From the NCBI GenBank assembly GCA_947646735.1, contig CANTFK010000164.1, positions 248,001 to 312,000 on the forward strand: DNA of 64,000 bases, written 5' to 3'. The notes under the pieces were generated by a model. It did not search any database. It was not told the DNA's origin and worked only from the letters and a program-made list of their open reading frames with translations. Within the stretch, counting starts at the first letter, position 1, and each line of letters opens with the position of its first letter. Position numbers and translations under genes: made by a program. This DNA comes from Peronospora farinosa. Lineage: Eukaryota; Oomycota; Peronosporomycetes; Peronosporales; Peronosporaceae. Below are positions 43,915-64,000 of the stretch, piece by piece.

Positions 43915-43919
43915 TGGTC

Positions 43920-44238
43920 TGTAACGGGCTAAGGACCCGTTACCGTCTTACACTAAAAGGGCGTTGAGGAAGCGCTCTTAATTAACTCGTAAATATAACT
44001 CTGTTTTATTTTTGTTTGAGTTTTAATTCGCAGTAAGTGCGAATATGTTCCCTAGCTCATGGGAACCATTCAATATGGAAGTCGATTTATTATTGGCTAA
44101 TTATTGGGTCTGGCACCCCAATAATAAACCAATAATAAAAATGACGCGCAGTATTCGCTAATCGGATACTGCCCTATGCCTACTTATGTAATTATGTATT
44201 AATCTTATAACTACTCATGTAATAGGTTCCCCATTACA
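43920..44238 (-). repeat. Element A 3' LTR
   Basis: 319 bp, TGTAAC...TTACA ends. The first 24 nt form a stem, GTAACGGG (43921-43928) with CCCGTTAC (43936-43943). The adjacent polypurine tract (44239-44251, minus strand AAGAGGGGGGTGA) marks this as the 3' LTR. Confidence 0.95.
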
Positions 44239-44251
44239 TCACCCCCCTCTT
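44239..44251 (-). other. Element A polypurine tract
   Basis: Minus-strand AAGAGGGGGGTGA directly abuts the 3' LTR, the expected plus-strand priming site. Element B has nearly the same tract at 59061-59073. Confidence 0.8.
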
Positions 44252-44530
44252 AAGTTGTGCTTACTACAACGTAAGCACATAACTTGAGAATGATTCTTTT
44301 CACCAAAGATGCAGCGACACGACCTCGAACCTGCTCAGTGACACGCGACTGAGCAGCATGACCCTGGCCGCGCGCGCAAGGATATATCTGACGACAACAA
44401 CCGTACGATCTGCAGGAAGCAGACACCGCGAGTCACGGACGCACACTTGATCCTGTGGACGCTATACCGTTATATCAGCGCTAATCATCCAGAATTTTGA
44501 AAAGTCATAACGAAACTCTCTATCATTCCG

Positions 44531-44608
44531 TTGGTGCAGTGGTTTACCACTGAGTTCTTGATCGTGATGTCGCTGGTTCGATCCCCACGTGCGCCATATT
44601 CGATTCGC
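44531..44608 (+). other. tRNA-like (A-box/B-box) sequence inside element A
   Basis: TGGTGCAGTGG (44532-44542) fits the tRNA A box and GGTTCGATCC (44575-44584) the B box, at normal spacing. The acceptor and T stems do not pair properly, so it is not an intact tRNA. It may be a tRNA-derived SINE head or a chance internal Pol III promoter. On the minus strand it forms the tail of the chromodomain frame. Confidence 0.4.
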
Positions 44609-46516
44609 TATGGCAACCCACATAATCGCAAATGCCATCCAAGTTTTCTCGAGCCTCATAATAGATCTCGGAAACGCTCGGGGACTCGTCGTCAAAGTTC
44701 TGTTTCTCGCGAGCATCACGGCTCGCGAGATTGGGGATGGAATCGGCAGCATCAATCGCAATAGCCGTCTTCCTACGCGACTCATTATCCACGACCACGT
44801 CTGGTACATCTTGGAACAGCGTACTCGATGGCTCCCATGTATCGTCCGCCGGGGAATATCCCAACCAGCGAACCCTGTAATGTTTCTCGACATGCTTCTT
44901 AATGGGCGCCGAGTTATTACTCGGCGCCTGGGGCTTGTGATCCTCGTGGTCGACAATCCAGCGTCGCGGACCCATGCATCAACTAAGGGAGGAGTAGCAT
45001 CACGACGGAAGACCTCTGGCGATGAGCGCCGATTCTCGTAATAGGGCGCCTGTACAGTCGAATGATGAGCTGCGCCTACTCCGCGCTGAAGCCGAGGAGT
45101 CGAAGAATGCACTACTTGATGCTCGTGAGATGGCTGAGAGAGCTCAAGATCGTGCGGATGCTTCGACTGAGGCTGCTGAGCGGACTCGACGTGAGCAGCT
45201 GGTTTTGGTTGAGCGCCTACGTCAACTTGAGACGACTGCGTTCGGAGGGCCCCAGCAGATCGAGTCTGCACGCGTTCGGGCAGGACTTGGTCCCAGTCGT
45301 CGTCAACGTCGTCGTCAGGGGATGTCGGATTTCGAGCCTGCACAGAAGAGCGGGGAAGATTCGAAGGGAGATCCGCCGGCAGGTAAGCTTTGAGGCGCCC
45401 GACGTAGAACGTCGGGTGCAAACGCATAGATGTAGGTATGTCTAGCGTGTAAGCGTCTCCATGCACCTTAACAACCCGAAATGGGCCAATATATCTTGGC
45501 GCTAACTTATTAGCGCCCAAATTCGTCACTGAGGTGTTCGGTAATCCACTTGTTGATAACAATACTCTGTCACCTTCTCGAAATATCAACATATTCTTTC
45601 GACCTCTTCTGTCTGCATTCTCCTTTTGCTTGTCGACTGCCTCTTGTAATGCATCACTCACAAAACGCGTGATTCCTTGTCGTAATAGGAAAAATTCGGT
45701 TACTGCAGCCGAACTTACAGACGACGTATTCTCTTTTGGGGCAAAATTAGCAACGGGAGACGCGATGGAATGCATCGCGTCAGAGTCGATATGCCGTTGG
45801 CCAAAAGATTACCAGTATTAGGTGCATCGGCAGCAACCTTATGCGCATCGTAATCAATCATCAATAGTTCCGGCGCAATTCCATCCGTAGATACTACCCC
45901 ATCAATCTTGGAGACAGGGTGTTCTGAAGCTGAGAGAGCAAGCAGCGCCGGAACGCGAGGATGCCTCGCGTTGTTAACGAAAAAGGTCGTCAACCCGGTT
46001 GACGCGTAAACAGCATTGTTGATTGCAAACTCTGCAAGTGGAAGAAATGAACCCCATGATGCGCAAAACATCTTCGAGCACTCTGTTCACACGCTCCGTT
46101 TGCCCATCCGTCTCTGGATGGGCCGCCGTAGACATAAGCAACCGCGTTCCTAATAGCTGGAATAATTCGGCCCAGAAAGCCGAAGTAAAACGCGGGTCAC
46201 GGTCCGAAACAATAGATTCTGGCAAGCCGTGATGCCTAAAGATAAGATCAATGAAGATCTTCGCTGTCGTCTCCGCCGTAATGTTGGCGGAGACCGGAGC
46301 AAAATGCACCATTTTGCTGAATCGATCCACTAGAACCAATACGCCCGTGCGTTTCTGTTCATCCGGTGGAAGGCCAAAGATAAAATCCATGCTGACCGAG
46401 CGCCAGGCTTCCGTAGCAATCGGAAGCGGGCGCAATGGGGCTTGTGAAGACGGCGCAGGCTTCACACGCTGACAGGTTTCACAGGAGCGCACCCATTTCT
46501 GGATGTACTTATACAT
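44544..46516 (-). pseudogene. Element A integrase and chromodomain, frameshifted
   Basis: Three overlapping minus frames carry one integrase. The first runs from 46516 (RSCETCQRVKPAP zinc-binding end; core D in MDFIFGLP, D in SDRDPRFTSAFW, E in HPETDGQTERVNR). The second continues at about 46071-45715 (PLAEFAINNAVYAST). The third, at 45775-44544, holds the C-terminal SH3-like part (NKLAPRYIGPFRVVKVHGDAYTL, HPTFYVGRL), a Q/P/S-rich linker and the chromodomain YRVRWLGYSPADDTWEP. The breaks make it non-functional. The chromodomain would direct integration to marked chromatin. Confidence 0.9.
45022..45393 (+). CDS. Antisense coiled-coil ORF inside element A
   Basis: On the strand opposite to the element, a 123-codon frame from the ATG at 45022 encodes a strongly heptad-like helix (LRLLRAEAEESKNALLDARE, then ERTRREQLVLVERLRQLET) and a basic tail. 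It overlaps the integrase-chromodomain linker. Element B has an antisense coiled coil at the homologous place. Expression is unknown; the pattern might be a by-product of local inverted repeats. Confidence 0.35.
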   Translation: MSADSRNRAPVQSNDELRLLRAEAEESKNALLDAREMAERAQDRADASTEAAERTRREQLVLVERLRQLETTAFGGPQQIESARVRAGLGPSRRQRRRQGMSDFEPAQKSGEDSKGDPPAGKL

Positions 46517-48614
46517 CCGCGGCCGGAAAATACGCGAGAAATAGCCGCAAACGTCTTCTCGCGACCCAGGTGTCCGCCAGCTGGGCTGTCGTGAAATTCA
46601 TGAACCAATCGGGCTCGAAGGTCGTCATCAGCAGGGATGACGACACGCGGGGAATCAAAGACGTCCATCGTGTACGTCAGCAACGGACCGTCAAGCGCGT
46701 AACACTTGATGTTGTCGCGTGTTGGTTTCGTCAACTTCGCGAGTAATTTTTCGCTCGGGTCCCTGAGATAGTTGATGATTCCTGAATAGAAGGAATCATT
46801 CGCGTAGGATTCAGCGATCTGAGTTCGAATCGAAAGCACGGGGGCCGAAATCATCGCATTAAGTCCCAGTTCAATACAACACACACAGATATCTTCGTCG
46901 TCATCAACATACTCCGTTTGATGACCCATATCACGCCGAGGATCGTAATCAGGATGACGAGAAAGCGCGTCAGCGAGAATGTTATTCTTGCCAGGCTTGT
47001 AATGCACCACAAAACTATACTCGGCAAAAAATGACAACCACCGCGCCATACGCTGGGACAAGTGAGGACTCTTGATGGCGGTACGCAATGATGCGTGATC
47101 TGTGTAGATAGAAAACATATTTTCGCCGAGCAATATACTTTAAACTTGATTAGCGCGTAGCGCGTAGCGCATAGCCAAAAGTTCCTTGTCGTGTATCGGA
47201 TAATTTCTCTCGGCAGGTTTCATCTGTCGTGATTGAAAACTCACGACGCGCTCTCGACCCTCGTCATCAAATTGCATGAGGGCACATCCTATAGCAAAAT
47301 TTCTCGCGTCACATACGACGTGGAATGGCTTAGAGTCATCAGGTAACATCAGCACCGGTGCCTCGGACAAGCTCTTCTTTACGGAGTCGAAGGCAGATTG
47401 ATGTTCTGCCGTCCATAACCATACTGCATCTTTCTTGAGCAAAGTCGACAATGGCTGAATTAGCTCGGCATAGTTCTTTGTATACTTATGCAAGTAATTC
47501 GCGAGACCGATCCATTGACGTAATTCAGTTTGGTTCCTGGGCGTTGGCCAGGAACAGATCGATGAGATCTTCTCAGGATCAGCGCGGACACCTTTCTTGC
47601 TGACGTAACAACCGAGTACTGGAATCTCGGGAGCGCAGAAGATACATTTCTTCAAATTCGCATGCAATTTATTCTCGTGCATAACTTGAGACACCTGCTT
47701 CAAGTGTCGAAGGTGTACCTCCGTAGCGCTGAGCTTTTGCTCAGCGCGGCTGTGAACAAAAACGTCGTCAAAGTAGCTCGGTGCAAAGTCGCGAAGTGGG
47801 CGAAGTACTTGTGTCACCATCCGATTGAACGTAGCTGGAGCGTTCTTAAGACCTTGTGGCAAGACTAACCACTCCCAAAGCATCCCGCTTGGGGTGCTGA
47901 CCGCAGTGAACGAAATGTCACTGTCCCTCATGAGGATCTGATAGAAACCGTCTGTCAGATCTATGGCGCTGTAGATCTCGCTCCCGGACACAGTATTTAA
48001 TACCATGTCTTTTCGAGGGATAGGTGTTTGAGCCGGGATAGTGGCGTCATTCAGCTTGTTGAAGGCGTGTACAATGCGCCAACCGCCGGTGGCTTTCTTC
48101 ACACAGAAAGTCGGACTCGAATGTGGCGAGACACTCTCGCGGACATGGCCAGCCTTGCGGCGACCCTCGAAAATTCATCAATAGCGATGACTTGGTCGCG
48201 CGGTAACGGACACTGCCTTGTCACGCAGTATTTTGATCCTGGAACGAGATCTATCTCGTGCCGCACACCACGATCCGCCGGAAGCTCAGCTGGAATTTTC
48301 ACCGGGAAAATATCGGCGTACTCACGGGCGATATCGTATACAGGGTTGCCCGAAGCACGAAGAGCATCCCAAGACTGTGCCGCGAAGCGTTCTTCGCGCG
48401 CTAATTTAGACTCGGCGCTCTTCGGGCGAGCCTTCAGAACTTCTTCACTGGCTGCTTCGGTGGCTGAAACGATGCACACTTGCTCGATGTCGCCGGCCTT
48501 GAGGTCATGAAGGAAGTCTTTCCATTTAAGGTCTGGCAGAGATGTGATATCTGCAGAAGTGCACGGTGGGCTCGCTACCTCAATGTAGCGGCCACGATGT
48601 GGGGATCCCTTCAC
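46462..48614 (-). pseudogene. Element A reverse transcriptase, RNase H and integrase zinc-binding region, broken
   Basis: Frame 48614-48099 holds the approach to RT (RHEIDLVPGSKYCVTRQCPLP). Frame 48102-47140 holds RT: ATGGWRIVHAFNKLND, YSAIDLTDGFYQILM, LPQGLKNAPATFNRMV, the catalytic YFDDVFVHS, and the start of RNase H (FHVVCDARNFAIGCAL, HDKELLAM). Frame 47133-46462 continues with IYTDHASLRTAI, RWLSFFAEYSFVVHYKPGKNNILADALSR and the integrase H-H-C-C region (VHEFHDSPAGGHLGREKT). Frame changes near 48100 and a stop near 47140 show decay. Confidence 0.9.
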
Positions 48615-48660
48615 ATATTAAAGTGCGCATACAGATTCCGTCACTACGGAATCAAATGCA

Positions 48661-49803
48661 TCAGCATCTTGACGTGCATTTCGTCGTCTCGGTGATCGGC
48701 GTGATCCTTTCTTGCGTTTTCTCTTTTTCTTGAGCCCCTGCTCGAGACTGGCACGTCGCTATCACAAGAGGATGATGTACCCCCCCCCCCTCTAGACATG
48801 GAAGCTCTGTCTCCACCACGTCGGTTTCATGCGGATCCATAGTCCGCCCATTCTCGTCAATTAAAAGCGGGAGCTCGTCTTCGACCGCTTCACTTGTTTG
48901 CGGGAGCCCCTGATCGACCGCCTCGATATTTATCGGGAGCCTCTGCTCGACCGCCTCGAAATTGATCGGGAGCATCTGCTCGTCCGATGTCTGTGTGTGC
49001 GGGAACCGCTGTTCGACCGCCTCGTTGTGTGGCTCCGTCAGTGTAACGGAATATACTGCGCACAGAGGGCCATCGCTCTCTCTGTGTTGACTACTAGTCG
49101 TGGCGAGTTCGTTCACGACCCTGACGTGAGGCCAATCGGATGAAGCGACCAACAAATGAGTAAACACTTCACTGACGTCATAACCGCTTTGTCGTTTGAC
49201 GGACCAAGATAGCCAATCTATCTTCGGCTGATACCGTGACATCCACGGTATCCCAAGTATGCAATCAAATGCATAGTTCATCTCGTACACCAAAAATTCG
49301 TCGTTGCTCTAGAAACCGTCGAAAGTGTACGGTAAAACCACTGTTTTACGCGGGACACGTTTTGGTTTTCCATCGGCAAGTTTGACAACGATGTCACCTG
49401 GACCTTCTCGAACCGTGACAGTCGACGGGAGAAGGGACAAACAGGATGCACGAAAGAAGTTGTTGGAAGCGTCAGAATCCAACAACGCTCGAAGTGGTCG
49501 CTTCACTCCAGCGACGATGAGACTGATAATAATCAGTCTCGAATCATCGCGCATGGTGGTGGCATTGAAGTGGGTATGAATCACTTTGGGGCTAGGAGCC
49601 CGAGCTGCCACCTGAGTACTCGGGGCTCCATTTCTGCCAGTAGGGCGCCCCACGCCTACTGGAACCGCTCGTTTTTTGGCGGGACCACCGACGACACAGC
49701 GTCTCCTCGTGAGACAGCTGTGTTCATAGTCACCGGCGCAGGTGCACGACAGACAGCCGCACGATGGCCTGTTTTACCACAGCGAAAACACTTCATCGTG
49801 TTA
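48661..49803 (-). pseudogene. Element A zinc knuckle and aspartic protease, degenerate
   Basis: The minus strand shows the knuckle KCFRCGKTGHRAAVC at about 49794-49750 (C-x2-C-x4-H-x4-C). A retropepsin frame at 49653-49309 has the active-site segment ALLDSDASNNFF; families have DSGA or DCGA here, so the catalytic Gly is replaced by Asp. The next frame, 49293-48661, begins YEMNYAFDCILGIPWMSRY (C-terminal protease strand) and contains degenerate EAVEQRLPINIEAVDQGLP repeats. A C-run at 48780-48790 lies in this frame. Confidence 0.8.
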
Positions 49804-49822
49804 GGATTGCGAATGTAGCGGC

Positions 49823-50695
49823 TTAATGATTTGCCGCGACCACGAGAGGACTCAATTGCATCATTTTCATTGGCTCTGGTCCAGACGTCCGGGGATGTTG
49901 TGACGCTGCGTGCAGGTACGACGACGCGACAGTGTAATCCTCAAGAAGCGCGAGGGCAAATGCCTCTTCGAGGGGCTTTGGCTCAGCACGTGTGAGGCAG
50001 TAACGCGTCATGCGCTCTTGCATACCAAAAATAAAGACATGGACTTGTGAAGCCATGTCAACTGGCTGCGTGGTAATGCACGAAGCAAGATGACGAGTCT
50101 TCTGCACGAAGTCACGCATCGACAGCTTGCCCTGTCGGAGTGAGAAGAAATCTGCACGCAAGCAAGATTCATCTTGAGGAGGCTCGAAAGCCAGTCGTAA
50201 GTCACGCTGGATATCGTCCAGCGTAGGAAACGCCGACTCATCTACGACGAGCTTTCCGAGAGCCCATTCCTTGGCTTTGCCGGCAAGGCGAGACAACAGG
50301 AAATTGACCATGGCCGTCGGAGCGTCAATTAATCTTGACGCTATTGCAATATCCACCTCGCGAAACCAGCGATTAAGGGGGAGACGATCCGGACCATCAC
50401 CGGAGTACGTTGACATCTCCATCTTGATAGCATCATGGTGCGAAGTGCGCGAGGGAGTGAATACTCGCCGATTCGCTTCGGCGAGCTCGCGCACCATAAA
50501 GTCTTGGATGGCGGCACGTTGACCATCAGGCGTCGCTGTGCTCAGCAGCAACGTCACAATAGTTTCGCCAGACACCGCCACGAGGCGATGTAGTGCCTGC
50601 CACTCCACCGAGGTGAGATGTGAAAAATCAGAATGCTCCAGCGAGACCGCTGGAGCCACCGAAGACTCGCCCATGTTCATCTCGAATCTGGTCAT
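49823..50695 (-). pseudogene. Element A gag (capsid) protein
   Basis: A 290-residue frame from the ATG at 50695. The retrotransposon gag fold is recognised by [52 protein letters not shown] and [18 protein letters not shown], closely parallel to element B gag. The frame ends before the zinc knuckle, which lies in another frame, so gag is separated from its nucleocapsid part by a frameshift. Confidence 0.85.
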
Positions 50696-50700
50696 TGGAA

Positions 50701-50719
50701 GGACTACAAAGTGCTACCA
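50701..50719 (-). other. Element A primer-binding site
   Basis: Two bases inside the 5' LTR the minus strand reads TGGTAGCACTTTGTAGTCC. Its first eight bases could pair with the 3' end of an initiator-Met type tRNA. Element B has a similar leader (TGGTTGAAC...). Confidence 0.55.
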
Positions 50720-50721
50720 GG

Positions 50722-51040
50722 TGTAACGGGCTAAGGACCCGTTACCGTCTTACACTAAAAGGGCGTTGAGGAAGCGCTCTTAATTAACTCGTAAATATAG
50801 CTCTGTTTTATTTTTGTTTTAGTTTTAATTCGCAATAAGTGCGAATATGTTCCCTAGCTCATGGGAACCATTCAATATGGAAGTCGATTTATTATTGGCT
50901 AATTATTGGGTCTGGCACCCCAATAATAAACCAATAATAAATTGACGCGCAGTATCCGCTAATCGGATACTTCCCTATGCCTACTTATGTAATTATGTAT
51001 TAATCTTATAACTACTCATGTAATAGGTTGCCCCATTACA
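50722..51040 (-). repeat. Element A 5' LTR
   Basis: 319-bp partner of the LTR at 43920. Its tract GTATCCG-ctaat-CGGATAC is a perfect stem here, while the other copy has one mismatch. Followed by the TGGTC target duplication. Confidence 0.95.
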
Positions 51041-51045
51041 TGGTC

Positions 51046-51366
51046 GATCCAATAACGTTCTGGCGCACCGGGTGGTTCTCGGTATTGATTGATCTATAGC
51101 TCGACTTTGAACTCCGTCACCGTTAAGCCCTCTAGGAGAGTGCACAATTTATTCCGATCTCCATCAAGATTCGCCGATCCGATCCTGCATTGGCCACTTT
51201 TGCCAAAGAGCGAAGACAACGGTGATCGAGAGCTTGTCCCGAATGAGTTAAATTGTTGCAAATGATTCTTCAAGGCATGATCGACGGCTATTGTGATATC
51301 GACATTTTGTCGTATATCATATTTCTTCACTTTTCTCGTCTGAACGAGATTAGAATGTGGTATACA
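51046..51366. other. Pre-insertion DNA between elements A and B
   Basis: About 320 bp of non-LTR sequence. A 78-codon minus frame (51330-51094) has no recognised family and may continue the dead sequence found left of element A. Confidence 0.4.
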
Positions 51367-51371
51367 GGAAT

Positions 51372-51831
51372 TGTAACGGGGCGAGCCCGTTACATAATAT
51401 TGACACTTATATGAAGTGTCAATAAAATATTATTATAACTAATAATATTTTGACAATATTACCTTTTCTTATAATATTGTTCCTAGATCTCCTTGAAGTT
51501 GGAGATGCCCTCTTATTGGTTGATATGGGCCATCATATCAACCAACGCGCTGACCAATGACCGATGGACGCGCGCAATGAGTGGAGGGCAAGTTGTCAAC
51601 ATACATAGTTGTAGTTTAATATAGTTAACATAGGTTATAACAGATTAGTTTTATTAAGATAGTTATCTATATTAAATACAGTTTTCCTTTTCTCTACTTC
51701 TAAGCGTTTGTATAGAAGTAAAGCCTCCTCTGCCTCTTGTGTAAGAGAGGTAATTGAGGCACCTGCTTTCACTGTAATCAGTGAAAGTAGACTATACTGT
51801 AATCAGTATAGTCGGAGGGTTCCCCATTACA
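51372..51831 (+). repeat. Element B 5' LTR
   Basis: 460 bp. It opens with the stem TGTAACGGG-gcgag-CCCGTTACA (51372-51394). Near its 3' end it carries consecutive stem-loops, among them CTTTCACTG/CAGTGAAAG (51766-51787) and ACTATACTG/CAGTATAGT (51791-51812), both with a TAAT loop. It ends CCATTACA. Confidence 0.96.
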
Positions 51832-51833
51832 CC

Positions 51834-51852
51834 TGGTTGAACTTCGTGGTCC
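51834..51852 (+). other. Element B primer-binding site
   Basis: TGGTTGAACTTCGTGGTCC begins two bases after the LTR, matching 15 of 19 positions of the element A site. The tRNA is not identified. Confidence 0.5.
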
Positions 51853-51878
51853 GTTCAGCGACCACCGCACCATCCGCT

Positions 51879-53028
51879 ATGGAATCAGCGGGAGATGAAC
51901 GTCATCACGCAACGCGTGATGATTTCCGCCATTTGAGTGACCTCGAATGGAATGCGGTTCAGCGTATGGCTGAAACCATCGGCAACCCTGCCGTTGGTGC
52001 CATGTTGCTCTCTCTTAGCGGAGACGACCAACATGCAACCATTACCAAGTTCATACAACATGAACTTGACGAAGTTGTAAAGAAACTCACCTTGCTACAG
52101 GAGCAAGGTTCTCAAGGTTAATCTGTTGAGAGAACAAGGCGCTCAACAGTCTGAACTGTTGAGACAACAGCAAGCTAGTGCTGCTGCTGCCGGGTCGACG
52201 TATACACGTCGACCCGAGTCCTTGAAGATTGATGTCTCCAAGTACAAGGCAGTCGAAAGCGACTCCTTGTTGAGATGGTTCGTCGAGCTCGACGATGCCA
52301 TTGAGGCTCGTCGCATCGATGACGATGCGATGAAGGTCAAGTTCGCCATGTCGAACTTGGCAGGACGTGCCAAAGCTTGGGCCTTAGGGCTCAAACTGCA
52401 CGACCCATACGTTTTTCCAACGTATGACGTCTTCAAGGCGCGGCTCAAACACACGTTTGAACCGCCTCGCGCCGAATTCAGGGCTCGGGCTGAGCTCCTG
52501 GATTTGAAACAGGGTAAGCGTGATATACACGCTTACGCCCAACACGTACGATACCTCGTTAGCTGTATCGTACTGAACCCAATCGATGAACACACGCAGG
52601 TTACTGTGTTCGTCAAGGGTCTGACAGATGTTCCTGTCAAGACCCACCTGTTCCGCTTGGAGCTAGAATCGCTGGATCAAGCGATCTCTGCAGCGGAACA
52701 GGAGGACTTTAGCCTACAACAGGCTCACGTCCACTCGGGATCCTATCGTCCACCGAGAAGACAGGAGGGCGGAGGTCCAGAACCAATGGACCTCTCCTAT
52801 GTAGAGAGCGAGCGACCTCGCTCTCCAGGGTACAAGCGATTGCAAAAGTGCAATCGCTGTCAGAAGTTGGGCCACTACGCTTATGAGTGTAGTGCCCCAC
52901 GCCCAGTGTCTCGTAACACTGGGAGTGACGATCGACCGTCTGCCAAGAAGGGCCAGAGACGTGGGTCCCACGTTGCTGCGAAATCGCAACAACGTGGTGG
53001 ACCATCAAAAAACGGTCGGGGTCAGTAG
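51879..53028 (+). pseudogene. Element B gag with zinc knuckle, one frameshift
   Basis: The first frame (51879-52121; MESAGDERHHATRDDFRHLS, LEWNAVQRMAETIGN) ends at TAA. The second (52126-53028) continues with the gag fold (LLRWFVELDDAIEARRID, FAMSNLAGRAKAWALGLKL, LKHTFEPPRAEFRARAELL, LKQGKRDIHAYAQHVRYL) and the CCHC knuckle CNRCQKLGHYAYEC. A single small indel near 52121 would explain the break. The frame ends with NGRGQ and TAG inside the frameshift hairpin. Confidence 0.88.
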
Positions 53029-53050
53029 AGGCGGAGCGCCCTACTGATCC
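53007..53050 (+). promoter_or_regulatory. Programmed -1 ribosomal frameshift site, gag-pol junction
   Basis: The heptamer A AAA AAC (53007-53013) lies exactly in gag phase (TCA AAA AAC). About 8 nt downstream a stem forms: TCAGTAG (53022-53028) with CTACTGA (53041-53047), then GGCG (53030-53033) with CGCC (53037-53040), with one bulged A and a GAG loop. G-C and wobble pairs lengthen the base to 53019/53050. The gag stop TAG (53026-53028) is inside the stem. A -1 slip enters the pol frame, which is open from there. Confidence 0.75.
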
Positions 53051-56000
53051 AGCAGCGTCAAGAGAGTTCGCGGGACTCTTGACGAAGGTTGCTCCCAACA
53101 CACAGTCACTGTGTGTTGCCGCTCCCAGTGATGAGGTATCTCTCATCACCTTGAAGATCGAAGTGACAAAGAACATGTCACTTCGCGCCCTAGTTGATTG
53201 TGGGGCTTCGAACAACTTTGTTCGACGCCAATCGCTAGATGATCGTAGGCTCAAATATGTTGAGCGCGAGACCCCTCCAACGAGGATGACGGTGCGCCTT
53301 GCAACTGGCGCATCCGTAACAGTAAAGAAACTTGTAGTGGGAATTCACTACACGCTTGAAGGCAAAAAGTACGATGATGATTTCATCGTACTTGATCTGG
53401 ATGACAAATTTGATGTCATCCTAGGATTACCATGGCTCAGAAGGTACGAGCCATGGGTCAGCTGGCAGCATCGAAACGTGAAGATGCCTGCCGCTTGTTC
53501 ATCAGATGGCCATCTGATGAACGTTTTGGAGCGTTCACAAGCGTGTGAATGTACTACGAGTGAGTGTGATGGCCTCACTTGTGGTTCGGTCGTTAGTACG
53601 ACTGCACAAGAACTTAGCGTGACAGACAGTCACGTTGTGGAGCAAGCTGCCGGCGGCTGTGCACAAGCACAGGCAGCGCCGAAGGTCCACCACTCGAATA
53701 AGTCGAGTGGACCGGGACATGAATGCTCGCCTAGAGGGCAGCATTCACCGAAGAGTAAACCGGTTGCCCAGAAGCGGCAACACGGAAATCCTAGATCAAC
53801 TGGAGAGTTGATCGTAGAGGATCTCGCTGTGGTTGCGCCACCACACCTAGAGGAAGTCGATGGAAGAAGTTTCATCGAGCCTGCGGGAATAAGTCCCCAG
53901 GAAATAATCACTGAGGGAATAAGTCCTCAGTGCCCTGAGGGAATAAGTACCCAGGAAGTAACCGAGACGTTGAACGTCTTGGTTAATGACGGATCAAATG
54001 TAGGCGCTTATACGCTTGATCTGATCGCGCCTCCGAAGTTAACTTCGGAGATAACTCAGTTGCCTACGCTAGAACCTAAAAGGTTCTTGCGTGATCTGCG
54101 TAGTGGCAAAGTCAAGCAGATCTGTGTGCTCGTCGCAGAAGACGAGTACATGACTGACATTCGGTCAGCAACAGTTTTTGCCGAGAACGAACGGTTTCTC
54201 AGCAGCTCATCAATGGACGAGAGTGTCCTTGATGAGAAGACTCGGATTGAGCGATATACATCGCAATCCTGGGAGTCACTGAAGTCAAATCCTTTGTATA
54301 AGGATTTGGCCGAATTCAAGGATGTATTCCCTGAATCCGTTCCGTGCGAGTTACCTAAGGATAAAGGTACTCGACACGAGATCGACCTTGTTCCTGGCAC
54401 AAAATATTGTGTCATGAAGCAGTGGCCACTGCCTCGGGAACAGGTCGAGGCGATCGACAAGTTCTTTGCCGATCGCCTAGCAGCGGGCCATGTGAGGGAG
54501 TCAACTTCACCTCACAGCTCTCCGACCTTCTGTGTGCGCAAGGCCACAGGAGGGTGGCGGATAGTGCACGCGTTCAATAAGTTGAACGCTGCAACGATAC
54601 CGGCGCAAACGCCGATACCGAGAAAGGACGTAATCATAGATGGTATGTCTAAGAGTACCATCTTTTCGTCCATGGATCTGATGGATGGTTTCTATCAGAT
54701 CCTAATGCGTGAACGGGACATCCCGTACACAGCAGTGAGCACTACCAGTGGTATGCTCTTGGAATGGTTGGTGATGCCGCAAGGGCTTAGTAATGCACCA
54801 GCCACATTCAATAGATGTGTTTCACATCTATTGAGACCGGTGTGCGATTTCGCACCGAGTTACTTCGATGATGTGTTCGTCCACAGTCGAGCTATGGACG
54901 GGAAAACAGACGTGGAAGTCCATAGACTACACGTCCGTAAGGTTCTTACACTTATGCGCGAGCATAAGTTGTAAGCCAACCTCAAGAAGTGTATATTCGC
55001 AGCTAGCGAAATACCGCTTCTTGGGTGCATCGTCGGAAAGAACGGCGTACGACCTGATCCAGAGAAGAACAAGGCGATCACCGACTGGCCAGTGCCAGTC
55101 GATGTCAAGGGACTAAGGAAGTTCCTTGGGCTAGCGGCGTACTTGCACAAGTACTCGCGCAACTACGCCGAAATGACAGTACATCTTTCTTGTTTACTCA
55201 AAAAATGTAAAGTGGAATTGGAACGCTGACTGCCAGCGTTCCTTTGAACGTATCAAGCAAAGCTTTATGCAATCGCCAGTATTGGCGATTGCCGATCAAG
55301 ACAGACCATTTCATGTGGTCTGTGACGCCAGTGATTTTGCAATCGGCTGCGCACTGATGCAATATGATACAGACGGCGCAGAGCGTGTCGTCTGTTATCA
55401 ATCGCGTCAGCTGCAACCGGCCGAGCGCAGTTATCCGGTGCATGACAAGGAACTCCTTGCCATGAAGTATGCACTGGATAAGTTTCGCGTCTATCTCTTA
55501 GGAGATAGACCGTTCATTGTGTATACAGACCATGCGTTACTACGCACGGCTGTAAACATTCCACACCTCTCGCAACGTATGGCGAGATGGTTGTAATTCT
55601 TCGCGGAGTACAACTTCTCCGTGGAGTATAAGCCGGGACGACTTAACGTCGTCGCCGATGCTCTCTCACGTCGGCCTGATCTAGAGCCGACTGTGCAATC
55701 CGACAGTGATGTGAACACCACTGTCGCCACGCTGAATACCAGCGTCTTGTCGTCGAGCTTACTCGACGACATTAGAATGGCATGCGCACAAGATAATGAT
55801 CTTGTACGCCTGATGGAGTACCTCAAGGACCCATCCACGCAAGCTAAGAAGCGCTTGCCTGCCATGTATCGATCTTCTCTAGATCGATACACCCAGCGGG
55901 ACGGCTTACTGTACTACACAGCCGTCAACAACGACACGCCTCGTGTCGTTGTACCGCCACAACATGATCTCAGGTTACGGATCATGTTTGAATGTCACGA

Positions 56001-57948
56001 TGCACCAATAAGTGGGCATCGCGACCGTGAGAAGACTTACCTCACGGTCAGTCGCGACTTTTACTGGCCACGCCAGTATGAGTTTGTGCGCAAGTACGTG
56101 CGCGCTTGCGAGGTGTGTCAACGAGTGAAGCCTAGTCCTTCGCTCCGTGCAACATTGCAGCCTCTGCCTGTTCCGGCAGAGTGCTGGGAGTCCGTATCAA
56201 TGGACTTCGTCTTTGGGTTTCCCAAAGACGCTCACGGGAATAATGGTATTCTCGTGTTTGTAGACAGGTTCAGCAAGATGGTACATCTTGTTGCTGTAAC
56301 TGAGTCGATCAAAGCAGAGGGCTGTGCTCGAGTGTTTATCGATACAATTATTCGATTGCACGGTTTACCCCGTGAACTTGTGTCCGATAGGGACCCCCGG
56401 TTCACGGCTGAGTTTTGGCGTTCCGTGTTCCAAACACTTGGAACACGGCTCACAATGTCTACTTCTGACCATCCAGAAACCGATGGTCAGACTGAACGCG
56501 CCAATCGCGTCCTCGAAGAGATTCTTCGAGGTATACTCGAAGAGATTCTTCGAGGGTACGTCCACTCGTTTACGAGTTGGAGTGAGTTCTTGTCGATGGT
56601 CGAATTCGCCATCAACAACTCCGTGCATGCGTCCACGACGCATACACCGTTCTACGTGAATGGCCTTCGCCATCCACGTGTCCCCACCTTAGTAGAGGGT
56701 GACTCTAATTTAAGGGGGGGGGACTCGCTCGAGCGAGAACCAATCTGGCTCTTGCTCATCACGCGACGACGTTATGGTCGACGCGAAAGTAACCGAAGTC
56801 GACCCATTCGACTTCGGTGAAGAGGAAGAAAGTAAGAGCGATGACGCTCTTACTGATAACGATGCTGAAGATATCAGCATCGTTCGAGGTATCACAAGTG
56901 AGAACAGTAATGTTCTCACTGAATTAGTAACCGATATCTCTGCAGTGCATTCACAATGCACTGCAGCCAAAAGCAACGAGTCAGCTGAGGATTTCCTGCT
57001 GACTCGTGAAGCGGTAGTCCGTTTCGTGCAAGACTCCATCGCAGAAGCGGTGGATAAGCAAAAGCGAAACGCAGACAATAATGGAAGGCAAATGCTCAGA
57101 CATTTATTGAAGGTGATTTAGTTTTACTGTCAACAGTAAACCTACCTAAACATGTAGTGACTAACGTGGGCAGCAATAAATTGTTGCCCAAGTACATCGG
57201 CCCGTTTCGTGTATTGCGCCGCCTAGGAAACGCATACACGATCGAGTTGCCACGCAGGATGCGTACGCATCCTACGTTTTACGTGGGACGTCTTCGTCCG
57301 TACGTTCAGTACGCGGCTTCTTCGAATGACGAAGATAGCCATTACTCTCAAGAATCCCCTTCAGATTCTTGTTGTCACGAACCAGATTCGATATCTGGTC
57401 GTGTAGATATGAGATCTTCCCATGATATTGGACGATCTCCTGACGAGCTGTCGCCAGCTCGTTACTCAGAGAATGAAGTCGCCGTTCATTCTCCAATAGT
57501 GCGACAGCATTGTTTGCCCGAGACCTCTCATGATCAAACCCAAGCTGTCGCACAATGTCCTCTAAGCGGCGACGCTTATCCCGTTCGTGATCAACATCAC
57601 AACGGAGATCACGAGTTACACGGGCAAACCCGTCTAACTCAGCAGCCAAGTCCGATGAAAGAATCGGACAGGGTTTTTCCTCCACCACCGCATCCGCTGG
57701 TAGACTCCCATGGTGGGAAGCGCTTCCTCGTGGAACGCTTACTAAAGCATCACGAGGTGAAGGGACGTCGGACGAGTTATCTCGTCCGGTGGCGTGGCTA
57801 TCCGCCTTCGGCGGATAGCTGGGAACCTCGGGCCCAACTGATGGCCGACGTTCCCGGCCTTGTCGAACATTACGACAAGGGGCACCCGATGATGAAGGAC
57901 CATTGGAAAACGAGCGCCCAGCGCGCTCGTAAAGGGATTGCAAAGTAG
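53007..57948 (+). pseudogene. Element B pol: protease, RT, RNase H, integrase, chromodomain (interrupted)
   Basis: Protease: RALVDCGASNNF and IVLDLDDKFDVILGLPWL. A Ser/Gln-rich spacer contains GISPQ repeats. RT: RHEIDLVPGTKYCVMKQWP, GGWRIVHAFNKLNA, SSMDLMDGFYQILM, YFDDVFVHS; a TAA interrupts at 54972. RNase H: HVVCDASDFAIGCALMQYD and VYTDHALLRTAV, with TAA at 55594 and a frame change near 55210. Integrase (from 55621): CEVCQRVKPSPS, SMDFVFGFPKD, SDRDPRFTAEFW, HPETDGQTERANR. A 24-nt tandem duplication (56512-56559) repeats EEILRG. A nine-G run (56714-56722) coincides with a +1 shift. The end has PKYIGPFRVLRRLGNAYTI, a long linker and chromodomain VERLLKHHEVKGRRTSYLVR. Confidence 0.92.
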
Positions 57949-59039
57949 CAATCCCTTCACGCATCTCAGAAGAGATGCGAGCCCTCCACCAGGGCTCAGT
58001 AAGGAGATACGCCTCCTTAGGCGCTCTTGACGAGGTGCTCAGGCACCCCGGGCATGGGTCGCCCCAAGAGAGGCATAACAGGCCTGCCTCTCTAGATAAC
58101 CGGTGCAAACGATAGCATGCACCGGAAGTACTTCGTTTCTCAAACTTATTGCGGCTAGCATAAAGTCTTTGAAACCAAGCCTCTTTCCCAACGTTTAAAA
58201 ACGTTGGTGATAAACGCGTTCCAAGATTGGAGGAACGCGTCGGCCTCACGCTTCTTGTGTGGGCCATACCATCGATGTTCAAGGAACACATCGATGTAAT
58301 AGTCGTTCTCAGTGCGAAAGTTCTTCGCACTGGCGTCAAGGCCATGAAGCTTTGACGCATCAAACAACGGTATGGGGAACCGCTCGTTGGTCTTTCCAGA
58401 CCAACGATCAAGCAGATGCTTAGGTAGCATCCATGCTTTGCGATCAGGAGCAAGACGCAATACGTTGCGGTCTAAAGCCTCCTGCGTGGTTTCAACAGAA
58501 GTACCGACACCACGAGCATTGGTGTCAACAGAAGTACCGACACTATGATTATTGATGTCAGTAGAAGCACTGACATCACCCTTACGGTCCCCACCCGAGT
58601 CACTATCCTTCGACTCGTTTGGCGAGTCGTCTGATTCATCAGACGACCCGAACATTTCACGGTACATTGATTCACTCAATGTACCACGATCCCTCTTCGT
58701 AGTATAAGACGACGAGGTATCACCCCGGGGAGAGCCCGGGAGTGGAATAGGTGATTTTGAGCCAGATGCGTCATCCGACTCACCAGAGTAGTCAACGACT
58801 AACTCTGGGTCAACATCTTCACGCGGCGAAGCGCTACGTGAACCTGCAACAGGCGTTGCAGGCTGATGTTGACTTCCAGCAGACACATTAGTGTCTGCTG
58901 GCTGAGGCTGTGAAGCCTCAGTAGCGGCTGCACACAGGCGTGCAGCCGAGCTCTCGGCTGCCTTAGCAGCGACGCGCATTGACTTTGTCATAGCGTAATT
59001 GTTGAATGAAAGAAAATTCAACAAGTTCTCCTCTCCCAT
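57272..59039 (-). CDS. Antisense ORF of element B (two frames, about 590 codons)
   Basis: On the strand opposite to gag-pol, a frame starts at the ATG at 59039 just inside the 3' LTR (MGEENLLNFLSFNNYAMTKS). It runs 294 codons to 58155: an Ala/Ser/acidic region (DVDPELVVDYSGESDDASGS), then a compact domain (WMLPKHLLDRWSGKTNERFP, YYIDVFLEHRWYGPHKKREA, SWNAFITNVFKRW). A second frame continues from about 58190 to 57272 (NKFEKRSTSGACYRLHRLSR, KEAYLLTEPWWRARISSEMR, then a coiled coil such as DHERDKRRRLEDIVRQLGFD). One frameshift joins them. From 57949 to 59039 there is no competing sense frame; left of that it overlaps pol linker and chromodomain. It is possibly driven by antisense activity of the 3' LTR. 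Function unknown. Confidence 0.6.
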
Positions 59040-59060
59040 AGTCACTAATGTGACTGTTGG

Positions 59061-59073
59061 TTGAGGGGGGTGA
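59061..59073 (+). other. Element B polypurine tract
   Basis: TTGAGGGGGGTGA directly precedes the 3' LTR. Confidence 0.8.
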
Positions 59074-59533
59074 TGTAACGGGGCGAGCCCGTTACATAAT
59101 ATTGACACTTATATGAAGTGTCAATAAAATATTATTATAACTAATAATATTTTGACAATATTACCTTTTCTTATAATATTGTTCCTAGATCTCCTTGAAA
59201 TTGGAGATGCCCTCTTATTGGTTAATATGGGCCATCATATCAACCAACGCGCTGACCAATGACCGATGGACGCGCGCAATGAGTGGAGGGCAAGTTGTCA
59301 ACATACATAGTTGTAGTTTAATATAGTTAACATAGGTTATAACAGATTAGTTTTATTAAGATAGTTATCTATATTAAATACAGTTTTCCTTTTCTCTACT
59401 TCTAAGCGTTTGTTTAGAAGTAAAGCTTCCTCTGCCTCTTGTGTAAGAGAGGTAATTGAGGCACCTGCTTTCACTGTAATCAGTGAAAGTAGACTATACT
59501 GTAATCAGTATAGTCGGAGGGTGCCCCATTACA
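59074..59533 (+). repeat. Element B 3' LTR
   Basis: 460-bp copy of the 5' LTR with about five substitutions (for example TTGAAA for TTGAAG, and GGGTGCCCC for GGGTTCCCC near the end), then the GGAAT duplication. Confidence 0.96.
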
Positions 59534-59538
59534 GGAAT

Positions 59539-61070
59539 GGCCACAAAACGAATCAACATCCCAAATCTGGCTACAGCGTATTCCATGAGTAACTCGATGG
59601 AACCTTGGAGACAAAATAATTTCATTTTTCGATTGCAAATCATCCCGGTTTTTCCATTTGTCGCTCTGGTCTCTCTTCCCTGATACACGGTCTATACTCC
59701 GTATCTGGGGTCTCCATATCTTATAATAAGCACTTCACCACAGGTGAATGATCTACTGAGACTTGCGATTTAAGATCGTGCTGATCGCCATAATGCACAA
59801 TTGAGCAAGTGTGAATCGTTTCGAGGTGATGCAATCACACGAGGAGGAACACCGTGACTAACGGCGGTGAGCGGTTAGGAGTGGTGAAGATGCGTAAGAT
59901 GGTTACACATGAAGTTGCAATGGAGTATATAAATTAAGTAAAATGATCGAAAATCACTGACTGAATTAATTTCGATCACGAGTGCACGATCAAAGATCGA
60001 AATTAATTTTGATTATGATCGTATGACTAAAGATTGAATTTACTTGGATTACGATTGCACGATTGAAGGAAGAAAAAAACTTTGAATGCGATCCGAAATG
60101 GAAAACAAAGAATGGAATCATATGAAAGGATCTTACTAACAAACTACATCAAAGGAATTACTCACGAAGTACAAGCTTATCAGCTAAGAGAGAAGGGGCC
60201 TCGAGGGGAAGCGACTGTTGGCGAAGAACAATCTGCAGGACCCACACAAGAGAAATCAGTATAAGGGTTCATGTTTGCGTGCAGCTTAGTTCTTTGCCGC
60301 TTTCGCGGCAACGCGCAGTTTCTTCGTATTGTTCGAAGGTTTGCTGGAATAAAAGAATAACCAGCTAGTGCTCCCCATTCCATAGACCCGGTCTTTCATT
60401 GGTCGAACCGGTCCCTCGTCGGTAGACCTCGGCACCACATCGGTAGACCCGGTCCATCATTGGTCGACCCGTTTCCTCATCGGTGACCTTGGCCCCTCAT
60501 CGGTCGACCTCGGCCCCTCGTCGGTCGAATTGTCGGTCGGCCTGGGTCCCTCGTCGTTCAGCCACTCCTGACCAGTTAATACAAGGATCAGACCAGTCGA
60601 CGCAAGGAATCAGAGCTTCAGGCAAGGATAGAGTAAAGGAGTTAAAAGGATAGGACTATATTAAATACTACTCAATTTGCGATCTACGTGGCACTACTCC
60701 GTCACCCAAAAAGAACTTGCTCTAAGCTACCACCTGTTCCGGGAAGGAAACACATTTTAGCCCCCCGTTGAATAAAGTTGCGTGGTTAAGTTCAAGTGCG
60801 AATAGAGCTCCAGGATATATCTGGCCTGTGAGCTCGTTCGAGTAGCAACACCCCCCCCCCCAAGACCCGCTATCGGAAGCGGTCTCCCTTACCTCACGGT
60901 CCGGGAGAAAAGTAAAGGTCAGGTGGTTAATACCCCTGAAACAAGAAGGAAAAGGCCAGGGATAAGCTCCCTGAAGAATTTTGGTTTTAAGGCCACTCTC
61001 GACAAGGTCGATCGAGTGGCCACCTACCGGCCCACCGAGTATAGCATATCCACTCGTGGCCCCCCAGGTG
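59539..61070. other. Non-coding, repeat-rich spacer right of element B
   Basis: It contains AT-rich imperfect repeats of a GATCGAAATTAATTT motif at about 59940-60070 and the tandem array listed next, plus a C-run near 60850. No gene is supportable; a purine-rich patch at 60900-61000 reads as a short Lys/Arg-rich frame with no family. Confidence 0.4.
60376..60556. repeat. Degenerate tandem repeat, about 24-26 bp period
   Basis: About seven imperfect copies of a CGGTCGACCTCGGCCCCTCAT-like unit (TCGGTAGACC, TTGGTCGACC, TCGGTCGACC and so on) follow each other. GC-rich in an AT-rich setting. Confidence 0.75.
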
Positions 61071-61210
61071 TACCTCCCTCAAGACAGGCGTCTACATCCT
61101 CACCAAGTCGTCCGAAAAGTGCAACCCGCCAGCCGACGGGTACACAAGGTGAGAGAAGGTCCATACGCGGCATCGGGGTTCTCCCACCGACAGTCGGCAG
61201 TCCGGCACAG

Positions 61211-62830
61211 TTAGTGGTTTGGGGTCTCATCATACATTTTTGAGACCACACACCACCACACATTACTGATCGTGTTTTTAGAATGACGTTGTATGCCATA
61301 TCGCCATCGTCGTGGATCTCTATCCCGTGGTTTAGTGCTCCCTAACGGCAGGGTTGCATCCAAAGTCGATCGTGGGTCCCAACCGTGAATTAAATAAAAC
61401 GGTGTGTCTCCACGAACACGATCTTGCGCGGTGTTAATCGCAAAAGTTGCTCGTACTGCATATTCGTCCCAATCGTTTTGGTTTCCATCCGTCACATACA
61501 TCTTGAATTACTCGTGTCAAAGTTTGTGCCATTCGCTCTGCTGTGCCATTTGCTTGCGGTCTATACGCCATCGTAGCCCACTTTTCTGTACTGCAATCTT
61601 AAAATTAGCTCGAAAGAAATCAGACATGGATCCTGGCTCTCGATCGTGGCGTCTTGCCTCACTTGCACCAAATCGCCGAAATACGCATTTTCGTAATTCT
61701 CTGCAATGTTTTGTGCAGTTCTGGACGAACTTGCCTTCGCGATTTCGTAACCGGAGAACAAATCGATACATAGTAACAGTCCGGTGTTTTCTTTAAACGA
61801 TCACGGCAACAACGAAATATGATACATAGCCACAATTTGAAAAAAGGTATGTCGCCTGCAAATTTCCTGGTATCCCCCATGGTCCGTTGGTCTTCCTTTG
61901 CCCATTTCACAATGCACACATTATTCTACATAGCGTTGCACACTTCGGTACAATCCGCGCCAATGGAAATTCTTTTTTATCCGTTGGTATGTCCGAACGA
62001 TTCCTTGGTGACCACCCTCCATACTCGTATGTTAATGATGTAGGAAATCTAGATGCAATAGCTCTGGTATCACCAAACGAGCTAGCTCTGTACGACCTTC
62101 GGGTCTCGCAGCCGATCAAGGGCAGAAAAAAAATAATCCAATTCGTCTTCGGATGCGATCAAAGCGCAAACCTTCGCTTCTTCTATTGTTAACATAGCGA
62201 CGTTCCCGATCAGATATGTCTTCAAGTTAGATATTAAGTTCTCTTCATCCTGTACTTGCTTTATCCTATCGATCCGCATTTGCTGCAGGATCTCCTCCTG
62301 TAAAACTTCTGACTGACAGCGTCTTCTTACGGTTGGTCGAGTTATCGCAGCCACTTTGACTACTCGATCAACTTGACTCGGAAGCAACAACTCATCTAAT
62401 CGATTGAGTGTAAATAGGTCTTGACGATCTTGATCAGAACCGACATGTACCTTTCTCCCACTGTAGAGCTTCGCTTGCTAGTCGAATAGCACTCTGATTC
62501 CATTCTCGCTTCATATGAAGGAAATCGTGATTTGGCCACGATCGTAGTTTTTATAGCTTGGCGACGCAAACCTGGGGCTTTGCGGTCGATTTCGCCACTT
62601 ATTTGCCTGGTCACCAAAGTTAAAGCAACGCAGATAATTACACACTCCCTAGTCTGATCAGCTAGTAACTGAGGAGTAGTCTTCGATATTCTGCTTTGTT
62701 TACCGTCATATCAGTAGAAAATTCAGATGCGGCAGCTACGATCGTCCATTCTGGTAGTTTCCAGATGTTCGCGTTGTAGCTTCGGCCTTCCTCTTCACCC
62801 TAGCCGATCCATCAAAACTGGCCACTAGGA
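61211..62830 (-). pseudogene. Element C: decayed Ty3/gypsy RNase H-integrase fragment
   Basis: Scattered minus-strand frames give one conserved series. RNase H pieces are NKAEY and ICGDSNLVTRQISGEIDRKA (62700-62550). A linker LQEEILQQMRIDRIKQVQDE, ISNLKTYLIG lies at 62390-62082. The integrase core LLCIDLFSGYEIAKASSSRT is at about 61770, with WATMAYRPQANGTAERMAQT at 61580-61520. WDEYAVRATFAINTAQDRVR and GDTPFYLIHGWDPRSTL follow at 61470-61370. Every junction is frameshifted. No LTRs are visible. It differs from elements A and B in wording, lacks their hairpin density and belongs to another gypsy lineage. Confidence 0.8.
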
Positions 62831-63490
62831 GGCTTTCCCCTATTTCCACCGTGGGTGGTGGAATACTTATTGTCTGCCTCGGCTATTTCCGCGAAGCGAT
62901 CGCGATCAAACTTCGTCCACCTCATCACGATGAGTTATACTCGCGGCCAGTATACCCAATATCTTATCTTCGCCCTTATCACTTTGGCAGATCTCTAATG
63001 CTCAATTCGAAAGCAATGCAGCCCATCTTCCTAGTCTCCCATTGAGGCCCGAAGACTGCAGCAGCCAAGCTAAAGCGGAATATCTCGTAAGTACTATAAT
63101 TGCACGTGAAACCAACATAGACGCTTGAGTAAATGGGCCGCTTTCTTGTCCCAGTGGACTTAGGCGATTGCGAAGGGCAAGAGAGGTGAAGACCAGGTGT
63201 TGGGGGCGATGGCCGCCAGCATTACGCCTCGAGAAAACGTGGACTTAATTTTGTCGTCGATTGCTTTTAGGAAGCAAGCCCGATAGACGATCGACCTACC
63301 TACGCCCGCAGTGGAACCTGACGAAGAATTGTATGTGATGAGTTTCGGTGGGTCGGCCCGGACGAAGCAAGGAGGAGGGACCTGTAGCGCCTATTTTACG
63401 GAGACTTCCTACATGACTTATAGTCGAAGCTGTTTTAAAGTATCTCGCTACGTCTACAGTGAAGGAGGTGGAAAATGAGGGCACATTGCT
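62831..63490. other. Unassigned transposon-derived sequence
   Basis: About 660 bp between the gypsy and copia fragments. No domain could be read; it may hold eroded copia 3' sequence on its right side. Confidence 0.35.
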
Positions 63491-63985
63491 GGGTTTTGAC
63501 TTGTAGGAGCCTCTAGAACGACGGCGACTGATCATTTGTGGAGATGTCGATATGTTTCGCACGGCCATGGTTGACGAAATTCTTCATCATCTTGATGCAG
63601 GATTGATTGTCTTCAATGAGCTTCAGTCCAGGCACCGGCTTGTTCGACGCCGGATCTCCCACAAAAGACGGTGAGCTCACTTACCTTCTTGAATCGCTAG
63701 ACTTAGCGCAATGTACTCGGCCTCGCTCGTTGACATCGACACGCTTGACTGTTTCTTGCTTCCCTAACCAATCGGGGCGCTCATCATCAAAAACGCATAC
63801 CCTGAAGTTAACTTGCGATCCGAGTGATCTCCAGCCCAGTCCGCGTCGGAGTATTTACGAAAACCAGATTCATCACCGGGTTTGAAGCGTACTCCATGCG
63901 GCTTGGTCCCTTGCAGATAACGAAAGATACGCTTTACTGCATCTCCTGCTCGACTTGAGGGTGTTCCATGAAGTGCGACACGTGG
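63491..63985 (-). pseudogene. Element D: Ty1/copia polyprotein RNase H fragment
   Basis: The minus strand reads AVKRIFRYLQGTKPHGVRF, FRKYSDADWAGDHSDRKLTS, GYAFLMMS, then a stop (TAG where copia has Trp), GSKKQSSVSMSTSEAEYIAL and, after a frameshift, LKLIEDNQSCIKMMKNF and RAKHIDIS. This is the copia RNase H domain with the SDADWAGD, STSEAEY and EDNQ motifs. Stops and a frameshift show decay. It continues towards RT beyond the window edge. Confidence 0.88.
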
Positions 63986-64000
63986 CCCTAAGCAAAAGCG

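Follow-up and report, generated by a model that had tools for sequence, protein, structure and literature searches.

The window analysed here is a 64,000-nucleotide (nt) stretch of the Peronospora farinosa genome (assembly GCA_947646735.1, contig CANTFK010000164.1, positions 248,001 to 312,000), and all coordinates below are counted from its first letter. It contains element B, a Ty3/Gypsy long terminal repeat (LTR) retrotransposon crowded from end to end with short perfect hairpins. The parts of element B, including its open reading frames (ORFs) and their Pfam families, are as follows.

51372..59533, + strand: element B, Ty3/Gypsy LTR retrotransposon (LTR pair, GGAAT flanks, Pfam domains)
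51367-51371 and 59534-59538: GGAAT target-site duplication of element B
51372..51831, + strand: 5' LTR, 460 bp, 8 perfect hairpins
52126..53028, + strand: gag ORF (Retrotrans_gag, Ty3_capsid), 12 perfect hairpins
53079..54974, + strand: pol ORF part 1, aspartyl protease and reverse transcriptase (RT) (RVP_2, RVT_1), 17 perfect hairpins
53497..53522: longest stem of the element, 13-bp arms, no loop
55177..55593, + strand: open stretch of pol, RNase H part (open frame; tblastn match to the RT/RNase H of element A, the second Ty3/Gypsy element of the window), 4 perfect hairpins
55621..56820, + strand: integrase ORF (Integrase_H2C2, rve), 13 perfect hairpins
57157..57948, + strand: SH3 and chromodomain ORF (SH3_Tf2-1, Chromo), 8 perfect hairpins
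57272..59108, - strand: long antisense ORF, split or frameshifted in the window copy into 393 and 317 amino acids, overlapping the chromodomain end of pol
59063-59073: purine-rich tract before the 3' LTR, on my reading
59074..59533, + strand: 3' LTR, 460 bp, 7 perfect hairpins, repeating those of the 5' LTR

The two 460-bp LTRs are 98.9% identical and are flanked by the target-site duplication, as expected of a Ty3/Gypsy element. The Pfam domains stand in the Ty3/Gypsy order (gag, protease, RT, RNase H, integrase), the RNase H domain being clear in another copy of element B, and a chromodomain closes pol (Chromo, 3.1e-13). The named protein relatives of the RT ORF, among the best 120 of 595, all belong to oomycetes (Peronospora, Pythium, Globisporangium, Phytophthora and Aphanomyces), and with 70 of 4146 first-look candidates scored the ORF has at least 76 genome matches at 75-100% amino acid identity. 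The insertion of this oomycete Ty3/Gypsy retrotransposon is recent. The antisense ORF is open over at least 587 codons in 7 of the 21 B copies read; its relatives in Peronospora effusa (80-92%) and P. matthiolae (35-53%) are about as long and show no Pfam domain above cut-off. The Chronos elements of Peronosporales and Pythiales (PMC5348765) resemble element B in host group, in Ty3/Gypsy membership and in the chromodomain at the end of pol, but they possess a second RNase H of archaeal/plant type, whereas the ORFs of the B and A copies scanned (L006 and L061) give only RT_RNaseH-type Pfam matches. A word search of that paper for 'hairpin', 'inverted repeat' and 'antisense' returned nothing.

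Hairpins were defined as maximal perfect inverted repeats with arms of at least 8 bp and loops of 0-10 nt. Element B contains 96 of them, against a mean of 1.16 and a maximum of 6 in 200 dinucleotide shuffles; 64 have arms of at least 9 bp and 35 arms of at least 10 bp, where the shuffle means are 0.27 and 0.07. The first-pass annotation, a reading of the letters that had drawn attention to these hairpins, located all 15 of its listed examples correctly, with the right arm lengths, and recognized a strong excess; its count of about 30 stems of at least 8 bp was too low. Shuffles that preserve the codons of each ORF, 200 of them free and 40 also keeping dinucleotides (means given in that order), abolish the excess: 12 hairpins against 0.42/0.57 in gag, 17 against 0.59/0.75 in pol part 1, 4 against 0.10/0.25 in the RNase H part, 13 against 0.29/0.50 in the integrase ORF, 8 against 0.42/0.75 in the chromodomain ORF, and 16 against 0.36/0.53 and 15 against 0.68/1.12 in the two antisense ORFs. 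Overall, 4-17 are observed per ORF against 0.1-1.1 in the shuffles. Chance and base composition are ruled out as causes by the two kinds of shuffle, and since the same hairpins recur in sets of 8 and 21 copies lying nearly all on different contigs, an origin in chance, composition or faulty assembly is hardly conceivable.

The excess depends on arm length. With loops of 0-7 nt, arms of 4 bp are no commoner than in shuffles (162 versus 161), and the surplus then rises through 5 bp (68 versus 39), 6 bp (30 versus 11) and 7 bp (20 versus 3.2) to 8 bp (27 versus 0.5) and 10 bp (17 versus 0.0), the arms reaching 13 bp. When loops of 0, 1 and 2 nt are counted as 4, 5 and 4 nt, the effective loop is 4 nt in 37 of the 96 hairpins and 5 nt in 20. 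Density is highest in the LTRs (15-17 per kb), the 3' region (15 per kb) and gag (13 per kb) and lowest in the RT core (8 per kb). To the right of the element the excess stops at the end of the LTR, near which, at 60383-60529, a GGTC-rich array of 20- and 61-bp tandem repeats is found.

Folding energies tell of more than the perfect hairpins. Along the element B folds 11-13 kcal/mol per 100 nt below its shuffles, across folding runs; for the whole of B the difference is 12.7, against 0.4 for 8 kb of host DNA. Removal of every hairpin of at least 8 bp leaves B with an advantage of 7.7 kcal/mol per 100 nt over shuffles, and B must therefore hold many shorter or imperfect hairpins too. No Rfam 15 family matched at gathering score anywhere in 43800-60500.

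Host DNA is poor in hairpins, with 10 in positions 1-43800 (mean of 10 shuffles, 5.8), none in 59534-64000, and 0, 1, 0 and 0 in four host ORFs. The statement of the first-pass annotation that nothing comparable exists in the host exons of the window thus stands for the exons, but a weaker excess exists in the neighbouring retrotransposon:

43920..51041, - strand: element A, second Ty3/Gypsy element (LTRs aligned at 43920-44239 and 50722-51041; Pfam)

The region of element A (43801-51371) has 32 hairpins against a mean of 1.11 and a maximum of 4 in 100 shuffles. Outside both elements there is an isolated perfect inverted repeat at 41885-41913, with 14-bp arms and a 1-nt spacer. Both elements also contain 33-bp tandem repeats, an in-frame length (B, 58487-58585; A, 48866-48986), with extra units in some copies of the A clade.

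Elsewhere in the same genome, the window copy and all seven other B loci carry 33-41 hairpins per 3.9 kb. Element A and its relatives show a weaker excess, of about 3-4 per kb (68 hairpins in 23.5 kb over six A-clade loci, L038, L059-L062 and L064). By contrast, there are 2 hairpins in the 4 kb of L063, a distant Gypsy element with 28% amino acid identity to A, and 3 in the 109 kb of 29 non-LTR loci. The 75 kb of 20 Copia loci contain 41 (0.55 per kb, against 0.23 per kb in host DNA), and two of these loci have clusters, of 3 and 6, within their first kilobase. The Pfam scans behind these element labels covered five non-LTR loci, all with an RT and no integrase and one with an endonuclease, and two Copia loci. 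The non-LTR, Copia and host controls reject a genome-wide process, and the near absence of hairpins from non-LTR elements together with their low numbers in Copia, distant Gypsy and host DNA ties the cause to certain Gypsy elements. Nor is the trait confined to B, being present in families A and A2 as well, and L095, the one copy of Gypsy family D (about 64-66% nucleotide identity to B, A and A2), is strongly folded. The trait goes with one group of Gypsy elements in this genome, and its strength and style vary by family. Relatives in viral contigs were absent from two scans. In prokaryote genomes the one find was a Gypsy-type RT of 38% identity (L096), binned with a Rickettsiales bacterium and with 3 hairpins over 6.5 kb, which is probably eukaryotic contamination of that bin.

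Copies of element B were compared in three sets: set 1, 8 copies over about 52.5-56.4 kb of the window; set 2, 21 copies over 57200-59036; and set 3, 16 copies, 8 older ones among them, over 53001-55050, which overlaps set 1 in region and in copies. Hairpin sites are widely shared, 38 of 44 being perfect in at least 7 of the 8 copies of set 1 and 24 of 33 in at least 17 of the 21 copies of set 2. In sets 2 and 3 together, private variants fall equally in stems (160/899) and flanks (506/2742, p=0.69). Rare variants break stems less often than random placement would have it (141 versus 178). Loop variants seem enriched (19/246, p=0.006), with 4 of the 19 coming from one inversion, without which p=0.08. 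Apparently stems are preserved during the active life of the element, and in dead copies they decay as the rest of the sequence does.

Comparison of the copies also brought to light traces of the kind left by template switching. In four hairpins of 8-12 bp, the loop is exactly reverse-complemented in some copy while the arms are intact, and in two other places an arm has been rewritten to match its partner:

53690..53710: hairpin, 8 bp; 5-nt loop inverted in L007
53857..53878: hairpin whose 10-bp stem, shared by most copies, is broken in the window copy; 2-nt loop AA changed to TT in L008, the weakest case (two substitutions)
54808..54834: hairpin, 12 bp; 3-nt loop inverted in L068
58876..58901: hairpin, 11 bp; 4-nt loop inverted in L085 and L089
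58518..58547: imperfect hairpin, inside the 33-bp tandem repeat; in L077 four substitutions, all in the same arm, turn it into a perfect one of 11 bp
53823..53852: hairpin of 8 bp; in L065, where one arm has lost 2 nt, it reaches 11 bp

The new arm of L077 differs from the neighbouring tandem-repeat units as read in the window. Several candidates were not counted as events: L083, where an existing stem was kept despite a 2-nt deletion; L081, which has extra bases at the alignment end; L082 at 57978, with two substitutions, one of them in the loop; and two element A entries explained by gaps in other copies. An exact micro-inversion scan of B copies returned the four sites and two 2-nt matches without arms; the inversion in L089 comes from the alignment of set 2 alone. 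The same scan in 25 non-LTR, 19 Copia, 4 A and 5 A2 copies gave five short matches with arms of 0-2 bp, a control of limited power since these sets offer hardly any hairpins to flip and the non-LTR sets only 231 mismatches; the Copia locus L045 had no partner and was left out of the alignment.

Loop inversion and arm homogenization are the two outcomes described for template switching at inverted repeats in yeast coding genes, where switching between the arms homogenizes them and inverts the spacer, the inverted spacers having arms longer than 9 bp (PMC8604942). They support copying, and the explanation that I tentatively put first is that the hairpins of B were written by arm-templated template switching during DNA synthesis on the element. 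The growing strand would briefly jump across a quasi-palindrome to its other arm, or onto the other strand, copy some bases and return; this would make the arms fully complementary, re-homogenize arms that had mutated and sometimes flip the loop. Repeated often enough, this would fill the element, the LTRs, gag and the 3' region receiving the most hairpins and the RT core, under the strongest protein constraint, the fewest. The switching would take place mainly during the element's own reverse transcription.

Traces of this kind could also come from template switching after insertion, when the host chromosome is replicated, rather than in reverse transcription. The same outcomes are known from yeast chromosomes in the account of PMC8604942, and three of the four inversions occur in a single copy each. 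Such an origin is nevertheless very improbable. The hairpin sites common to most copies, which lie on many contigs, must predate insertion; other elements and host DNA lack the hairpins; and the inversion at 58876 is found in two copies that have three further rare variants in common and was therefore probably transmitted.

The properties of the stems bear on whether copying or folding was at work. Genome-scale ordered RNA structure occurs in plus-strand RNA viruses, and the hairpins of B might likewise have been selected because they fold the sense genomic RNA densely, which could serve packaging, stability or the evasion of small-RNA silencing; at 13 bp or fewer, the stems would be shorter than what Dicer usually cuts. 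The folding excess of B is what this explanation predicts, and B resembles those viruses in a folding energy far below shuffles throughout the genome. A folded sense RNA under selection would, however, be expected to accept G.U pairs, to fold better in sense than in antisense, and to have GC-rich stems and common stable tetraloops. In B, interior mismatches of hairpins with at least 7 pairs comprise 28 A.C, 16 G.T and 26 others (A.C versus G.T, p=0.096), and those fixed in families over B, A and A2 comprise 12 A.C, 5 G.T and 9 others, so that G.T is not preferred. Sense and antisense folding energies are equal. Of the predicted pairs 5.6% are G.U; in six control ORFs the share is 11-13% (sense strand, 300-nt windows). 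Stem GC content, 0.50, is that of the element, and stable tetraloops (3 of 34, 1.9 expected) show no clear enrichment. Neither the sense bias nor the G.U tolerance by which ordered RNA structure is recognized was found in the stems of B, which, unlike the viral folds, are short, perfect, equal on both strands and poor in G.U. Such Watson-Crick, strand-symmetric stems without GC enrichment fit copying better than selection on the folding of sense RNA, and folding selection alone does not explain the loop inversions.

Strand symmetry and Watson-Crick pairing would also follow if selection acted on DNA, with hairpins in single-stranded cDNA or in the duplex serving replication or integration and template switching as a by-product. 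The excess of A.C over G.T mismatches in sense is one of G.T on the cDNA strand (28 versus 16, p=0.096). The other retroelements of the genome manage without such hairpins, there is no known need for about 90 of them, and this explanation appears improbable.

Several results weigh against copying as the chief cause, and some of them are points for a folded RNA. Variants shared by at least two copies are about twofold rarer in stems (17/899 versus 103/2742, p=0.005, sets 2 and 3; odds ratios 0.46, p=0.02, in set 2, 0.48, p=0.12, in set 3 and 0.48, p=0.34, in set 1), as selection also predicts, which indicates that stems are maintained as well as made. Between families, 5 of 28 hairpin sites are present in both A and A2. 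A stricter pairwise count finds 3 of 13 hairpins of L061 (A) kept in L062 (A2) at 67.7% identity, where 0.5% of random placements would stay unchanged; two of the three kept show compensatory changes (three pairs in one, one pair in the other), and 10 of the 13 have turned over. Re-copying of the arms would yield the same persistence. The RT region of family D (L095:1-1801) has one perfect hairpin in 1.8 kb, yet folds 7.8-9.5 kcal/mol per 100 nt better than shuffles (7.8-8.4 for codon shuffles), and its sense strand folds better than its antisense by 2.5-2.7 per 100 nt (Copia control, 1.5); family D may be a decayed hairpin chain or another architecture. The stems of A and A2, at 0.58-0.65, are richer in GC than their elements, at 0.51-0.54, and in B there is a weak trade-off between arm length and GC (rho -0.21, p=0.048).

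Other points weigh against it as well. Inversions (four) and homogenizations (two) are few, and one inversion is only 2 nt long. Hairpins already present would draw switching whatever their origin. Loop inversion requires the opposite strand and may therefore arise in chromosome replication rather than reverse transcription. A directional pair bias, looked for in the stems, was absent (G-C 198, C-G 192). Among private variants of one base, those that give a new or longer stem number 22, where chance predicts 23.0; the L077 event accounts for 4 of those observed. Of the two causes named in the first-pass annotation, template switching that perfects quasi-palindromes has thus gained direct but sparse footprints and failed to show in single-base repairs. 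Selection for a structured RNA, the other cause, retains the depletion of shared variants and the compensatory persistence, loses on the tests of G.T, G.U, strand, GC and tetraloops in B, and is the less well supported; I regard it as rather unlikely to be the chief cause. Both copying and selection may act, copying being the likelier chief cause and the element's own RT the presumed polymerase.

Nothing in particular supports a relation of the stems to the reading frame, which the first-pass annotation had held them to respect: they start in all three codon phases, and in stem codons the amino acid identity of B to A falls to 71/154 (46%) from 409/680 (60%) outside (p=0.0016), a point in favour of copying. 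Against A2 the figures are 46% and 61% (p=0.0011), and at positions where A and A2 agree, B is identical at 71/123 in stems and 420/624 outside (p=0.048). Comparisons of A with A2 gave no difference in amino acid identity between stem codons and the rest. Either hairpins are gained at the expense of amino acids, or they come to lie where the protein tolerates change.

Related processes are known. The yeast genes of PMC8604942 resemble B in that short inverted repeats within coding DNA have their arms homogenized and their spacers exactly inverted; they differ in that 39 genes were followed through the evolution of many strains, whereas B has about 90 hairpins in one 8-kb element, within one retroelement clade. 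Template switching has been proposed to create and maintain hairpins in RNA genes (PMC8794818), with perfect stems, multi-base compensatory changes made by copying and rare loop inversions, all as in B; that proposal concerns RNA genes and DNA replication, and its directional G-C/U-A bias is absent from B stems. Quasi-palindrome mutations have also been linked to RNA:DNA hybrids in yeast (PMC3820800). There too switching extends arm identity, amid hybrids of a kind that reverse transcription would also make, although the evidence comes from reporter assays in chromosomal DNA.

In the open-licence PMC papers searched, no description of a hairpin-saturated retrotransposon was found, in agreement with the first-pass annotation, which knew of none; an 80-fold excess of perfect hairpins through retrotransposon coding sequence is undescribed there. 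It is possible, though I hold it with considerable doubt, that these elements form a clade in which the element's own copying apparatus puts hairpins in place over the whole of its genome and restores them to perfection, turning coding sequence palindromic until protein constraint halts it. If so, this would be a self-templating genome architecture, undescribed for any retrotransposon in the literature searched. With dozens of copies, sister families of differing hairpin strength and hairpin-poor elements in the same nucleus, these retrotransposons are a natural system with controls, which could measure how template switching makes and preserves stems apart from selection for RNA structure. 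Copying versus selection is an old ambiguity wherever covariation is taken to prove a functional fold.

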